A DNA stretch of 64,000 nt, from the NCBI RefSeq assembly GCF_028069655.1, contig NZ_JAMCOS010000001.1, forward strand, positions 2,386,001 through 2,450,000, read 5' to 3'. Positions within the stretch are counted from its first letter, which is position 1. Each line of letters begins with the position of its first letter. The notes under the pieces were generated by a model. That model was not told the origin of the DNA, searched no databases, and was given only the letters and a program-made list of their open reading frames with translations. A program made the position numbers and the translations under genes. This DNA is from Acidovorax sp. NCPPB 4044. GTDB lineage: Bacteria; Pseudomonadota; Gammaproteobacteria; Burkholderiales; Burkholderiaceae_C. Of this stretch, positions 6,971 through 59,338 are shown piece by piece.

Positions 6971-7020
6971 TGCTATTTAATTGATAGCAAACTATTCAAT
7001 GGAATCGGCGGCATGGGAGC
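6971..7020 (+). repeat. In-gene/intergenic palindromic repeat, copy A
   Basis: The intergenic copy of a roughly 45-50 bp dispersed element. It has TGCTAT at offset 0, the perfect palindrome GCTAT-N7-ATAGC, AGCAAACT at offset 15, TTCAATG at 24 and CGGCGGCATGGG at 35. It lies between the aldehyde dehydrogenase and ZIP genes. By hand it matches copy C (in folP) at 36 of 50 positions and copy B (in dnaX) at 32 of 48, with no gaps. Confidence 0.75.
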
Positions 7021-7038
7021 CAAAACCCTTGAACCGCA

Positions 7039-7941
7039 TCACCCCAGGGCGGTATCGAGCAGCATCATGAGCACGAAGCCGATCATGAGCCCGCCGGTGG
7101 CCCAGGCCTCGTGCCCCTTGCGGTGCGATTCGGGAATGATTTCGTGGCTGATGACGAACAGCATCGCGCCGGCCGCGAACCCCAGGCCCCAGGGCAGCAG
7201 CCCGGCCGACAGGCCGATGATCGAGGCGCCCAGCACGGCGCCCAGCGGCTCCACCAGCCCCGATGCCATGCCCAGCGCCACCGCCAGCCAGCGCCGGTAG
7301 CCGGCCGCCAGCAGCGCCACGGCCACCACCAGGCCCTCGGGCACGTCCTGGATGGCGATGCCGGCCGTGAGCGTGCCTGCCTGCAGCGCATCGGTGCCCC
7401 CGTAGGCCACGCCGATCGCCAGTCCTTCGGGGAGGTTGTGCAGCGCGATGGCGAACACGAAGAGCCAGGTGCGGCGCAGCGTGCGCGGCGAGGGGCCGCC
7501 CTCCACGCCCTTGATGAAATGCTCATGTGGCAGCAGCCGCTCCATGACCAGCAGTGCGAGCCCGCCCAGCAGGATGGAGCCGCCGATGATGCCGCCCGCG
7601 CCCCAGGCGCCCGCGCCGTTGGCCTTGGCCGCCTCCAGGCCGGGAATGATCAACGAGAAGGACGACGCCGCCAGCATCACGCCCGCCCCGAAGCCGAAGA
7701 GCGTGTCCTGCACGCGCTCGGAGAGGCGCTGAGAGAACACCACCGGCAGCGTGCCGAGCGCCGTCGCCAGCGCGGCGACCAGACCGCCCTGCCATGCGAG
7801 TGCCACGCGGGGATGGGCCTGCAGGAACTGCGCGAACTGCAGGCCCAGCACCACCAGCCCCGCCAGGGCGATGGCCAGGCCGAACCACCGGCGGAATCCC
7901 CAGCCGGGGCGGCGCAACGACAGCGTGTTCTGGGCGGGCAT
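7039..7941 (-). CDS. ZIP family divalent metal transporter
   Basis: This 300-residue inner-membrane transporter has about eight hydrophobic helices. The metal-site signatures of the ZIP family are clear: ALHNLPEGLAIG in helix IV and IQDVPEGLVV in helix V, with a further HEIIPESHR element. It probably imports Zn2+, Fe2+ or Mn2+; the ZupT/GufA-like branch fits best. The central loop HEHFIKGVEGGPS gives a short His-containing cytoplasmic segment. I chose the ATG with GGAG nine bases upstream; a TTG at 7968 with AGGAA is a credible longer start. The neighbour upstream is sodA, which needs Mn or Fe, so a link in metal supply is plausible. Confidence 0.9.
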   Translation of the reverse strand: MPAQNTLSLRRPGWGFRRWFGLAIALAGLVVLGLQFAQFLQAHPRVALAWQGGLVAALATALGTLPVVFSQRLSERVQDTLFGFGAGVMLAASSFSLIIPGLEAAKANGAGAWGAGGIIGGSILLGGLALLVMERLLPHEHFIKGVEGGPSPRTLRRTWLFVFAIALHNLPEGLAIGVAYGGTDALQAGTLTAGIAIQDVPEGLVVAVALLAAGYRRWLAVALGMASGLVEPLGAVLGASIIGLSAGLLPWGLGFAAGAMLFVISHEIIPESHRKGHEAWATGGLMIGFVLMMLLDTALG

Positions 7942-8013
7942 GGATGGGCGCTCCGGAAGGGGTTTCAAGGCGAGGGTTCCTGTGCGGGAAGGTGCCGTGC
8001 GGTCGGTTGCGGG

Positions 8014-8646
8014 TCAACCGCGGGCGTTCGCGTACCGGCGGGCCACTTCGTCCCAACGGATCACACGATAGAACGCCGCGATGTATTCGGGGCGTCGGTT
8101 CTGGTACTGCAGGTAGTAGGCGTGTTCCCACACGTCCAGCCCGAGGATCGGTGTGTGGCCCGACAGCAGCCCGGCCATGAGCGGGCTGTCCTGGTTGCCG
8201 CTGCTCTCCACCGCAAGGCGGCCTGCGGCATCCACCACCAGCCAGGCCCAGCCGCTGCCGAAGCGCGTGAGCGCGGCCTTGGTGAAGGCTTCCTTGAAGG
8301 CGTCGAGGCCGCCCAGGTCGCGATCGATCGCCTCGGCCAGCGCGCCCGTGGGCTGCCCGCCTCCACCCTGCCCCTCGGGGGCCATCACGGTCCAGAACAG
8401 GCTGTGGTTGGCGTGGCCGCCGCCGTTGTTGCGCACGGCGGTCTGCAGCGCTTCGGGCAGCGACTGCAGGCGCGCGACCAGTTCGTCGATGGGCGCGTCG
8501 GCATGCGGCGTGCCTTCCAGCGCGGCATTCAGGTTGTTGATGTACGTCTGGTGGTGCTTGGTGTGGTGGATTTCCATCGTCCGCGCGTCGATGTGCGGCT
8601 CCAGGGCGTCGTAGGCGTAGGGCAAGGCAGGCAGCGTGTAGGGCAT
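8014..8646 (-). CDS. sodA: Superoxide dismutase, Mn-type
   Basis: This 210-residue Fe/Mn superoxide dismutase converts superoxide to oxygen and peroxide in the cytoplasm. Metal ligands lie in [29 protein letters not shown] and [14 protein letters not shown]. The NNGGGHANH segment and the Gln in [10 protein letters not shown] are those of manganese enzymes, so I assign SodA rather than SodB. The ATG at 8646 gives the canonical [10 protein letters not shown] start; the frame continues upstream but that part crosses the Fur box. A Fur-box-like site lies about 70 bp upstream, as for E. coli sodA. It is divergent from the peroxide-producing LodA-type oxidase. Confidence 0.96.
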
Positions 8647-57091: not shown

Positions 57092-57114
57092 CGCCCAGTC
57101 CCCGCAGGCCTCGT

Positions 57115-58449
57115 TCAGCCCGCGCGCGCGGCATCGGCCAGCTGCTGCGCGAAATGGCTGGCCCGGTCCGCATCGCTGGTCTCCACCATCACACGCAACA
57201 GCGGTTCGGTACCGCTGGCGCGAACCAGAACACGCCCCTCCCTGCCCAGTTCGGACTCCACGGAACGCAAGGTCTGCTCCAGTACCGCATTGGCCTTCCA
57301 GTCCTGGCCCGGCGCCAATCGGACATTGACCAGGACCTGAGGAAACAGGCGGAGCTTCTCCAGCATCTTCGCAAGGCCGCGTCCGCTGCGCACGCATGCC
57401 TGCAGAATCTGCAGCGCACTCACCAATCCGTCTCCCGTCGTATGCCGGTCCAGCGCCAACAGATGGCCGGACCCTTCGCCACCCAGGAGCCAGCGGCGAC
57501 GGGCGAGCTCTTCCAGCACATAGCGGTCGCCGACCTTGGCCCGCACCAGTTCCACGCCCTCGGCCTTGAGCGCCAACTCCACCGCCATGTTGGTCATCAG
57601 CGTGCCCACGACGCCGGGGAGCTGCTCGCCCCGCGAGAGCCGGTCGGAGGCCATCAGATACAGCAGCTCGTCACCGTTGTAGAGCCTGCCGGAAGCGTCC
57701 ACCATCTGCAGCCGGTCGGCATCGCCGTCGAGAGCCACGCCGAAATCGGCCCTGTTGGCACGCACGGCCCGCACAAGGGCATCGGGATGGGTCGCGCCGA
57801 CCTGGTGATTGATATTGAGCCCATCCGGCGAGCATCCAATCGCCAGCACCTCGGCGCCCAGCTCGTGGAAGACCTTGGGCGCGATGTGATAGGCCGCTCC
57901 ATGGGCCGCATCCACCACGATCTTGACGCCCTTCAAGGTGAGGTCTTGCGGGAAAGTGCTTTTGCAGAATTCGATATACCGCCCGGCCGCATCTTCCAGC
58001 CGCCGGGTTTTGCCCAGGGACGCAGAGTCGGCCCAGGCCGGCGCTTCATCGAGTGCGGCTTCGACAGCCAATTCCCACTCGTCCGGCAGCTTGGTGCCCT
58101 GCGCACTGAAGAATTTGATCCCGTTGTCGGGATAGGCATTGTGGCTCGCGCTGATCACCACACCCAGGCTGGCCCGCTGAGCGCGGGTCAGGTAGGCAAC
58201 ACCCGGCGTGGGCAAAGGCCCCAGCAGCACGACATCGACGCCTGCGGAGTTGAACCCCGACTCCAGGGCACTTTCCAGCATGTAGCCCGAAATGCGGGTG
58301 TCCTTGCCAATCAGTACGGTGGGCCGTTCCTCGGTGCGCCGCAGCACTCGCCCGACCGCGTGCGCGAGCCGCAATACGAAGTCGGGAGTGATCGGCGCCT
58401 GCCCCACGGTCCCTCGAATGCCGTCCGTCCCGAAATATTTCCTTGCCAC
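57115..58449 (-). CDS. glmM: Phosphoglucosamine mutase
   Basis: This 444-residue enzyme converts glucosamine-6-phosphate to glucosamine-1-phosphate for UDP-GlcNAc. The active Ser is S102 in [13 protein letters not shown], the Mg site is DGDADRLQ, and the sugar loop is GGEGSGH. The start is GTG with AGGAG seven bases upstream. It follows folP by 52 bp in the conserved ftsH-folP-glmM order. Confidence 0.97.
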
Positions 58450-58501
58450 TGTTGTTCTCCTGTTGGCCCGTCCGAAGAGCCACGGTTGCTTTGCTCTTCA
58501 A

Positions 58502-59338
58502 TCAAGGTGCCGATGGTACCTGTGCCGCTTCCCAGACCTGCAGTGCAGCGACGGTCTCCCGAACATCGTGCACGCGAACGATCCGGGCCCCCCGCTCCAC
58601 CGAAAGCAACGCAGCTGCCACACTGGGCACCATCCGCCCATCCACCGCGGTTTGCGTCACCGCGCCCAGCGATGACTTGCGCGACCAGCCTGCCAGCCAG
58701 GGGTAGCCATTCGCAGCCAGCAGCCGCTGCTGGGCCAACAGCGTGAAATTCTGTTCCACGGTCTTTCCGAACCCAATCCCGCTGTCAAGAACAATCCGGG
58801 TCTTTTCGACCCCATGCCGCCGTAAACATTGAAGAGTTTGCTCCAAAAATGATAGCACCTGCCCAATCACATCTCCATGCATGGGCGTGCTCTGCATGGT
58901 CTGGGGATCGCGGTGCATGTGCATCAGGCAAACCCCGCATTGGCCGTGGCGAACCACGGTGTCGACCGCCCCTGGTTGCCGAAGCGCCCAGATGTCGTTG
59001 ATGACATCGGCACCCAGTTCAAGCACTGCCTCCATGACCACCGGCTTGTAGGTGTCCACCGAGATCGGCACGCCCCAGCGCACCGCCTCTTCCACGACCG
59101 GCAGAACCCGCGCCAGTTCCTCTTCCAGGGGAACCGCTGGGCTTCCAGGCCGGGTGGACTCGCCGCCGATATCCAGAATGTCGGCCCCCTGCCTCAGCAG
59201 TTCTTCGCCATGGCGCAACGCAGCGCTCGATGAAGCATGGCGCCCTCCATCGGAAAACGAATCGGGTGTCGCGTTCAGGATGCCCATGACGCGGGGCCGC
59301 GTCAGATCGATTCGAAATCTGGAAGTCTGCCAATACAT
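58502..59338 (-). CDS. folP: Dihydropteroate synthase
   Basis: This 278-residue TIM-barrel enzyme condenses pterin pyrophosphate with p-aminobenzoate and is the sulfonamide target. Motifs: VMGILNATPDSFSDGG, DIGGESTRPG, SVDTYKP, NDIWAL, LMHMHRDPQTMQ, LDSGIGFGK and GWSRKSSLG. AGAGG precedes the ATG at 59338. A copy of the dispersed repeat falls in the helix VLSFLEQTLQCLRRHGVEK. From memory this segment aligns with E. coli FolP without a length change. Confidence 0.97.
   Translation of the reverse strand: MYWQTSRFRIDLTRPRVMGILNATPDSFSDGGRHASSSAALRHGEELLRQGADILDIGGESTRPGSPAVPLEEELARVLPVVEEAVRWGVPISVDTYKPVVMEAVLELGADVINDIWALRQPGAVDTVVRHGQCGVCLMHMHRDPQTMQSTPMHGDVIGQVLSFLEQTLQCLRRHGVEKTRIVLDSGIGFGKTVEQNFTLLAQQRLLAANGYPWLAGWSRKSSLGAVTQTAVDGRMVPSVAAALLSVERGARIVRVHDVRETVAALQVWEAAQVPSAP
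58810..58857 (-). repeat. Dispersed palindromic repeat, copy C, inside folP
   Basis: On the coding strand: TGCTAT at offset 0, GCTAT-N7-GGAGC head, AGCAAACT at 15, TTCAATG at 24, CGGCGGCATGGG at 35. It matches the intergenic copy A at 36 of 50 positions without gaps and is in frame with folP. The strongest in-gene copy. Confidence 0.75.

Follow-up and report, generated by a model that had tools for sequence, protein, structure and literature searches.

The question raised by this locus is how a palindromic repeat can come to lie within conserved protein-coding genes, in several of them without any change of length, and what maintains it there. Our window is a stretch of 64,000 nucleotides from Acidovorax sp. 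NCPPB 4044 (contig NZ_JAMCOS010000001.1, positions 2,386,001 to 2,450,000), in which a first-pass annotation had proposed six copies of an ungapped dispersed repeat, five of them inserted in coding sequence. We find that the repeat is a genome-wide family with lineage-dependent sequence variants ("dialects"), that in-gene copies of equal length occupy shared codons in different genera, that dialects differ in place at orthologous sites, and that one clade has lost the repeat. Our tentative reading, which we consider quite possible, is that of a Comamonadaceae-wide recognition motif of about 65 bp, similar to repetitive extragenic palindromes (REPs), which would be kept genome-wide by a trans-acting system favouring copies in the current dialect.

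The repeat consists of a hairpin head, GCTAT-N7-ATAGC, and a directional, dialect-dependent tail of about 48 nt. The pattern GCTATNNNNNNNATAGCA, with at most one mismatch, occurs 309 times forward and 303 times reverse in the window's own genome (G000), against 14 and 11 times for the same pattern reversed. Of 30 loci with a perfect head, 27 have a tail in which at least 20 of 31 positions agree in one orientation; the remaining loci (L017, L019 and L028, all below 20/31) were excluded from our covariance model, R1, which was built from 31 ungapped copies, namely these 27 and four from the window. Read head first, the consensus runs nTTGCTAT-N7-ATAGCAAACTATTCAATGnATCCGGCGGCATGGAGCC and then passes into a weaker stretch of ATTT/AAA, with conservation over about 65 bp. 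A weight matrix of 68 columns detected 30 copies across 457 contiguous kb of the own genome, or about one every 15 kb; of these, only the four in the window had entered the matrix. It detected 28 in the matching 452.5 kb of G005, a genome with which the window is collinear at 92.8% identity. The same scan gave no copies in 470 kb of the repeat-free G007 and none in reversed-sequence controls, where the best score was -12.3 against about 25 for the lowest own copy. Extrapolating from this density, the own genome holds about 350 copies. The 30 copies of the 457-kb block are spaced more evenly than random (coefficient of variation 0.67 versus 0.95, P ~0.016; in G005, a sample not independent of the own genome, P 0.012), with no close pairs among the 30 and nearest neighbours not under about 2.4 kb apart. 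The dispersed, ungapped repeat first proposed from the window is thus borne out by the genome-wide counts. In an Rfam search of the window at the gathering score the repeat fits no family, the sole match being a small signal recognition particle (SRP) RNA, and one consensus-like copy had no match at E<=0.01 in plasmid and phage collections.

The covariance model finds exactly four full-length copies in the window, with E between 1.9e-15 and 8.7e-11, all four being themselves among its 31 training copies. They and their host genes are as follows.

6969 to 7036, plus strand: copy A, 68.2 bits; head 6972-6988, tail 6989-7036
24425 to 26467, minus strand: dnaX (DNA polymerase III tau/gamma), host of copy B
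24897 to 24964, plus strand: copy B, 63.2 bits, within dnaX and antisense to it; head 24900-24916
40400 to 41761, plus strand: gene of a MATE family transporter, host of copy E
41330 to 41397, minus strand: copy E, 50.9 bits, within the MATE gene, antisense; head 41378-41394
58502 to 59371, minus strand: folP (dihydropteroate synthase), host of copy F
58792 to 58859, minus strand: copy F, 57 bits, within folP, sense; head 58840-58856

The candidates first placed at 6971, 24899, 41348 and 58810 are therefore genuine, and those at 31227 and 35936, in addA and at the start of addB, are not copies (see below). As for their placement in coding sequence, it holds for dnaX, MATE and folP, three of the four genuine copies. 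Copy A is intergenic, lying between two predicted genes about 97 nt past the end of an aldehyde dehydrogenase (ALDH) gene (open reading frame, ORF, 5430-6872), and copy B sits ahead of the DnaX tau C-terminal domain.

On a larger scale, genes in the 457-kb block were called with a crude finder based on GC content at third codon positions (GC3), which missed folP. Ten of the 30 copies lie inside genes predicted in this way, to which folP adds one more, six lie across a gene end and 13 are intergenic. The host genes include lpxK, dnaE2, dnaX, the MATE transporter gene, folP, tilS, and genes for a periplasmic binding protein, an E1 protein of pyruvate or alpha-ketoglutarate dehydrogenase (PDH/AKGDH) type and, at its extreme end, a HutD/Ves-type protein; for the copy at 34198, which falls in an open frame ahead of the LexA domain, the assignment to a gene is uncertain. 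By weight matrix the in-gene copies score 25-76, below most intergenic ones.

For nine of the 11 in-gene copies, both flanks could be located in G007. At the sites in lpxK, dnaE2, MATE and folP this genome has exactly 68 nt, in dissimilar GC-rich codons, and a fifth in-gene copy, in another ORF, corresponds to 69 nt between the flanks. A plain gain of one repeat length relative to G007 was seen in none of the nine, which speaks against the in-frame insertion of Rickettsia type to which the annotation had likened the repeat; its other suggestion, replacement rather than simple insertion, is supported for some in-gene copies. Among relatives, the 68 nt between the MATE flanks are kept in 10/10 and those between the folP flanks in all eight with both flanks aligned (two of ten lacked a flank), and for dnaX such a comparison was possible with G005 alone. 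The stretch of FolP coded by the repeat also aligns without net indel with solved dihydropteroate synthase (DHPS) enzymes, in the four alignments shown of 44 matches; we take 2y5j to be a Burkholderia DHPS and 5u0v to be one of E. coli type. The unchanged length first noticed in folP is thus confirmed, and it extends to several, not all, of the other in-gene copies.

The same codons are involved across genera. In a survey of the family, 45 of 150 genomes pass a carrier cut-off of at least 15 heads and at least four times the control. We sampled folP in a first set of 46 additional genomes, 16 from the genus and 30 from the wider family, and in a second set of 30, the two sets together covering 43 of the 45 family carriers (G056 and G099 left out). 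For the first set and for lpxK, carriers were defined by at least 30 heads and non-carriers by at most 17, with G150 (29 heads, control 76) in neither class; for the second set, carriers had at least 15 heads. Head matches of at least 6/10 at a fixed register were present in folP of 26/31 carriers and 0/15 non-carriers of the first set (means 6.97 and 2.00; rank-test P 9.7e-8) and of 12/21 carriers and 0/9 non-carriers of the second (means 6.00 and 2.89), and in lpxK, across 31 genomes, of 23/24 carriers and 2/7 non-carriers (means 8.12 and 3.57); the rank-test P values for the second folP set and lpxK were 2.4e-4 and 2.3e-4. Within one genus, g15, folP of G030 (94 heads) matches at 8/10 with all five stem pairs, and that of G160 (7 heads) at 1/10. 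The use of A or T at third positions also rises at the motif in carriers, to 0.58 in lpxK against a gene mean of 0.18 and to 0.34 in folP against 0.22, and folP of non-carriers shows no such peak (0.17 and 0.17). Most non-carriers have different, GC-rich codons at the in-gene site, with some FolP residues kept, which is not what would be expected had these bases been ancestral and merely held by protein constraint, the objection that the annotation had raised against itself. Two folP genes, L313 (G080) and L375 (G128), have extra codons and a head-like palindrome displaced within the segment; length-changing events therefore do occur at the folP site. A further folP gene, L379 (G125), has about 27 extra residues in frame, elsewhere than at the repeat site.

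Presence of the repeat varies with lineage, as genome scans now support. Eleven of 17 genomes of the same genus hold 80-275 perfect heads (control 0-11), and in G002, G003, G004, G006, G007 and G014 the number is near background (11-17 versus control 3-6). Exact matches of the head-plus-tail pattern among named genomes led to Paracidovorax konjaci DSM 7481 for 52/52 stretches, in a list that may omit records very near the window's own genome. With at most 150 candidates scored per genome, R1 matches only 8/17 genus genomes, and none of the head-rich G009, G013 and G016, because tails differ and the model is bound to its dialect. Dialects were derived from 66 copies for G000/G005, nine for G001 and 20 for G010, G011, G012 and G015, with a second subtype within the G010-G015 group derived from six; G009 has a variant with a second, GC-rich inner inverted pair, identified by eye.

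In-gene copies follow these dialects. When the tails of the lpxK, folP and MATE copies of G000, G001, G010, G011 and G015 were compared with dispersed copies at equal sample sizes, the nearest one belonged to the genome's own dialect group in 13 of 15 cases (shuffled copies gave about 0.38 identity), and the two misses, lpxK and MATE of G000, were by 0.02. At the same folP codons, the second subtype is resembled in the G010-G015 group and the first in G000/G005. A test with weight matrices was less clear: the profiles are flattened by small sample sizes, and several lpxK and folP tails score higher with the matrix of another group. Outside genes there is the copy at 6969: its G001 orthologue bears the GGCGAC of that genome, and dialects therefore differ in place.

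Between G000 and G005, 27 copies were paired, which is every own copy with its place covered in G005. For the other three own copies, the flanks are missing from the G005 contig. A single G005 copy stayed unpaired, and its counterpart in G000, 96% identical, falls slightly below threshold. There is thus no site turnover between these two closest species in the part compared. Core identity was 0.949 for in-gene copies, against 0.897 and 0.918 for the 60-bp flanks, and 0.888 for other copies, against 0.797 and 0.840.

Loss of the repeat is seen as well. In a tree of folP and lpxK from which the motif had been taken out, G002, G007 and G014 stand within the carriers, beside G000/G005 (support 100, and 91-96 one node deeper); in an unrooted tree of the 64-kb block they group with G009-G015 instead (95). 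In either tree they are surrounded by carriers, and this nested clade has lost the repeat, its in-gene sites included. No substitute palindrome is over-represented in 470 kb of G007 to a degree comparable to the repeat in G000; some non-palindromic dyads occur there in 10-18 copies.

How could such a family be maintained? In the reading that we tentatively put forward, a trans-acting system would favour copies matching the current dialect, and copies would be rewritten in place through conversion-like recombination, selected point changes or both, because DNA with the current motif would be preferred. The logic might be that of DNA uptake sequences (DUS) and uptake signal sequences (USS), where a recognised motif builds up in permissive sites, dialects evolve in concert and the motif erodes once recognition stops. 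Candidate recognisers would be the competence machinery, a REP-associated tyrosine transposase (RAYT) or another DNA-binding protein. A bolder version appears to us unlikely. In it, the repeat would stand as a third class of natural sequences for genome-wide self-recognition, one found outside Neisseriaceae and Pasteurellaceae; it would be much longer than DUS/USS, rewrite coding sequence in place and evolve dialects across the Comamonadaceae.

Several observations weigh against maintenance by recognition. Known uptake sequences are far shorter than this motif with its roughly 65 bp, and a role in uptake or binding is suggested by analogy. About two thirds of the copies lie outside genes, and at several places intergenic copies look like added DNA: at 6969, six relatives that have no copy are 89-162 nt shorter between the flanks, and relative to G007 the own sequence is longer by 76 nt at block position 52888 and by 57 nt at 13923. 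Four of the nine comparable in-gene copies also differ in length from G007, the own sequence being 12 nt shorter at 34198, 105 shorter in tilS, 63 shorter in dnaX (where a distant flank was used) and 57 longer in the E1 gene, whose G007 counterpart is only 72-77% identical. In folP, the scores of eight carriers (G036, G066, G080, G163, G079, G058, G084 and G137) do not exceed 4. In lpxK, the non-carriers G138 and G077 reach 8 and 7, and a weaker A/T third-position peak is also present in non-carriers (0.38 versus 0.16). Furthermore, the carrier rank tests treat related genomes as independent and used hand-chosen genomes, some of the 13 dialect wins are as narrow as the misses and again come from related genomes, and the excess of core over flank conservation is a modest one that presupposes detection of both copies.

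The alternative that survives best is a new REP family moved by the resident RAYT, with intergenic copies arising as single-strand insertions and in-gene copies from annealed single-stranded copies that overwrite partly similar coding DNA at unchanged length. We regard it as possible, if rather unlikely. The own RAYT passes NCBIfam NF047646 (82.5 versus a cut-off of 80), each of the 17 genus genomes has one such gene, intact, and homologues occur in 142/150 family genomes, PF01797 alone missing those in G036, G084 and G156. Like REPs, the family has a hairpin, a matching copy number, a bias towards intergenic DNA and extra length at some sites between genes, and the head palindrome is found within the 3.3-kb RAYT locus in 10/17 genus genomes, in G013 and G016 without a recognisable tail. 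In other genera, however, a copy adjoins RAYT at only 1/28 loci (L140, 42 bp upstream of RAYT), and both the missing GTAG or CGTC tag and the lack of close pairs are at odds with movement as a REP. The rate of nonsynonymous substitution (dN) lies well below the synonymous rate (dS) in the tested pairs of carriers and of non-carriers, and RAYT is intact with similar dN/dS in the repeat-free clade, on which grounds its presence was rejected as a sufficient explanation. RAYT may have started the repeat family, but its presence does not account for the distribution of genomes that maintain the repeat. In repeat-free genomes, REP-type transposase genes (L031, L062-L077) persist intact, their dN well below dS.

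A functional DNA or RNA structure, acting in the nucleoid, in replication, at transcript ends or in mRNA stability and selected wherever the protein permits, would require neither drive nor mobility. The better conservation of the core than of the flanks, the proximity of many copies to gene ends and the folP stem, in which 5/5 pairs survive base changes in G135, G088, G030 and G031, would all be in keeping with it. Nevertheless, parallel change of the tail dialect at many sites is hard to obtain by independent point mutations, and one clade has lost the repeat with no evident substitute palindrome in 470 kb; we consider this explanation distinctly unlikely. Less probable again are ordinary ancient insertions followed by decay, with orthologues inheriting the inserted bases and non-carriers eroding them. 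The sites are indeed old and common to several genera, several intergenic sites show added length, and length varies at some in-gene sites: in folP of G080, G128 and G047, and in lpxK, where the segment is of equal length in 30/31 genomes and four residues longer in G051. For folP, however, this account is contradicted: solved enzymes from other lineages align with no net indel, so that nothing was inserted there. It also leaves the in-place dialect change unexplained, and we consider it improbable. Finally, that protein sequence and codon use merely coincide with the motif, no element being present in genes at all, is hardly credible given in-gene scores of 25-76 against a control maximum of -12.3 and the way in-gene copies follow dialects and carrier status, even if some residues coded by the FolP stretch are family-conserved (V-FL-GV-RI), codon choice can mimic a motif, and G138 and G077 have head-like lpxK DNA without many dispersed heads.

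Two sites in the window that had been taken for copies belong elsewhere.

31227 to 31274, minus strand: partial chance match in addA, not a copy; tail 13/31, nothing at E<=1
35937 to 35953, no strand assigned: separate conserved palindrome at the addB start, not a copy; tail 14/31, nothing at E<=1

The second, GCTATGACTGTCATAGC, lies on the rho side of the addB start and is found in carriers and non-carriers of the genus as well as in G019, G020, G101 and G157. It was ruled out as a copy of the repeat and assigned to a different conserved site because it is also present in repeat-poor species; it has the look of a conserved operator and no relation to the repeat. Another palindrome, GCTATGGTCACCATAGC (61567-61583), about 15 nt upstream of the ftsH frame, recurs in G002, G003, G006 and G007 and is one more conserved, operator-like site. 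A bacterial small SRP RNA gene is located at 28136-28232.

If our reading is true, a dispersed repeat alters the amino acids of conserved proteins (FolP, LpxK, DnaE2 and a transporter) without insertion. The codons affected would be the same in many genera, and the changes would keep pace with the repeat's own sequence elsewhere in the genome. A non-coding motif would thereby drive protein evolution along a route of its own. The repeat-free nested clade, together with a genus that includes a carrier and a non-carrier, offers ready comparisons for finding the protein or process responsible for maintenance.

Parts of the repeat have been encountered before. The motif section of PMC5217627 lists, as "potential novel motifs", GCTTAT(N)5AAGCG in Acidovorax ebreus and ATAGCT(N)22CAAAAG in Polaromonas naphthalenivorans, with 114 and 125 copies that are mostly intergenic (5 and 18 in genes). 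Judged by eye, these pairs are pieces of the same element in relatives, and that section gives no full element, dialects, carriers or in-gene behaviour. Apart from these motif pairs, the open-licence literature searched yielded no description of the full element or of how it behaves within genes, nor of RAYT or REP doublets (REPINs) in this family.

Among known systems, the repeat shares with REPs and REPINs its hairpin, its hundreds of copies, their mostly intergenic position and the presence of a RAYT gene in the genome; intragenic REPs are known as well, according to the portion of PMC3733652 used here. Unlike the REPs of the GTAG and CGTC superfamilies, its consensus nTTGCTAT-N7-ATAGCAAACTATT has no GTAG or CGTC tag at the stem ends, and head-to-head dimers do not predominate, 0/30 copies being paired in 457 kb. 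Also unlike REP/RAYT systems, it has a long asymmetric tail and several length-neutral in-gene copies, and RAYT is retained where the repeat is lost. With respect to miniature inverted-repeat transposable elements (MITEs), which have terminal inverted repeats and target-site duplications, the two ends of the repeat are not inverted copies of one another in the alignment of 31 copies, and no polymorphic filled and empty site from which a duplication might be read was seen between G000 and G005. Rickettsia palindromic elements (RPEs) are in-frame insertions that lengthen proteins. The repeat resembles them as a palindrome within conserved genes; in contrast to RPEs, several of its sites keep their length and recur at the same codons across genera.

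The closest parallel comes from uptake sequences. USS are similar in length to DUS. The latter, as far as the consulted portion of PMC3630211 goes, are 10-mers by definition, occur in up to thousands of copies and form lineage dialects with intragenic copies in permissive regions of the core genome and with intergenic copies. The Comamonadaceae repeat is likewise an over-represented motif with lineage dialects and both intragenic and intergenic copies, and its coding copies in folP, lpxK, MATE and dnaE2, though not those in dnaX, tilS, the E1 gene and the ORF at 34198, are length-neutral. Unlike DUS/USS with their core of about 10 bp, it is conserved over about 65 bp and present in hundreds of copies. 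By analogy, then, the behaviour of the repeat resembles that of DUS dialects more closely than that of Rickettsia-type in-frame insertions.

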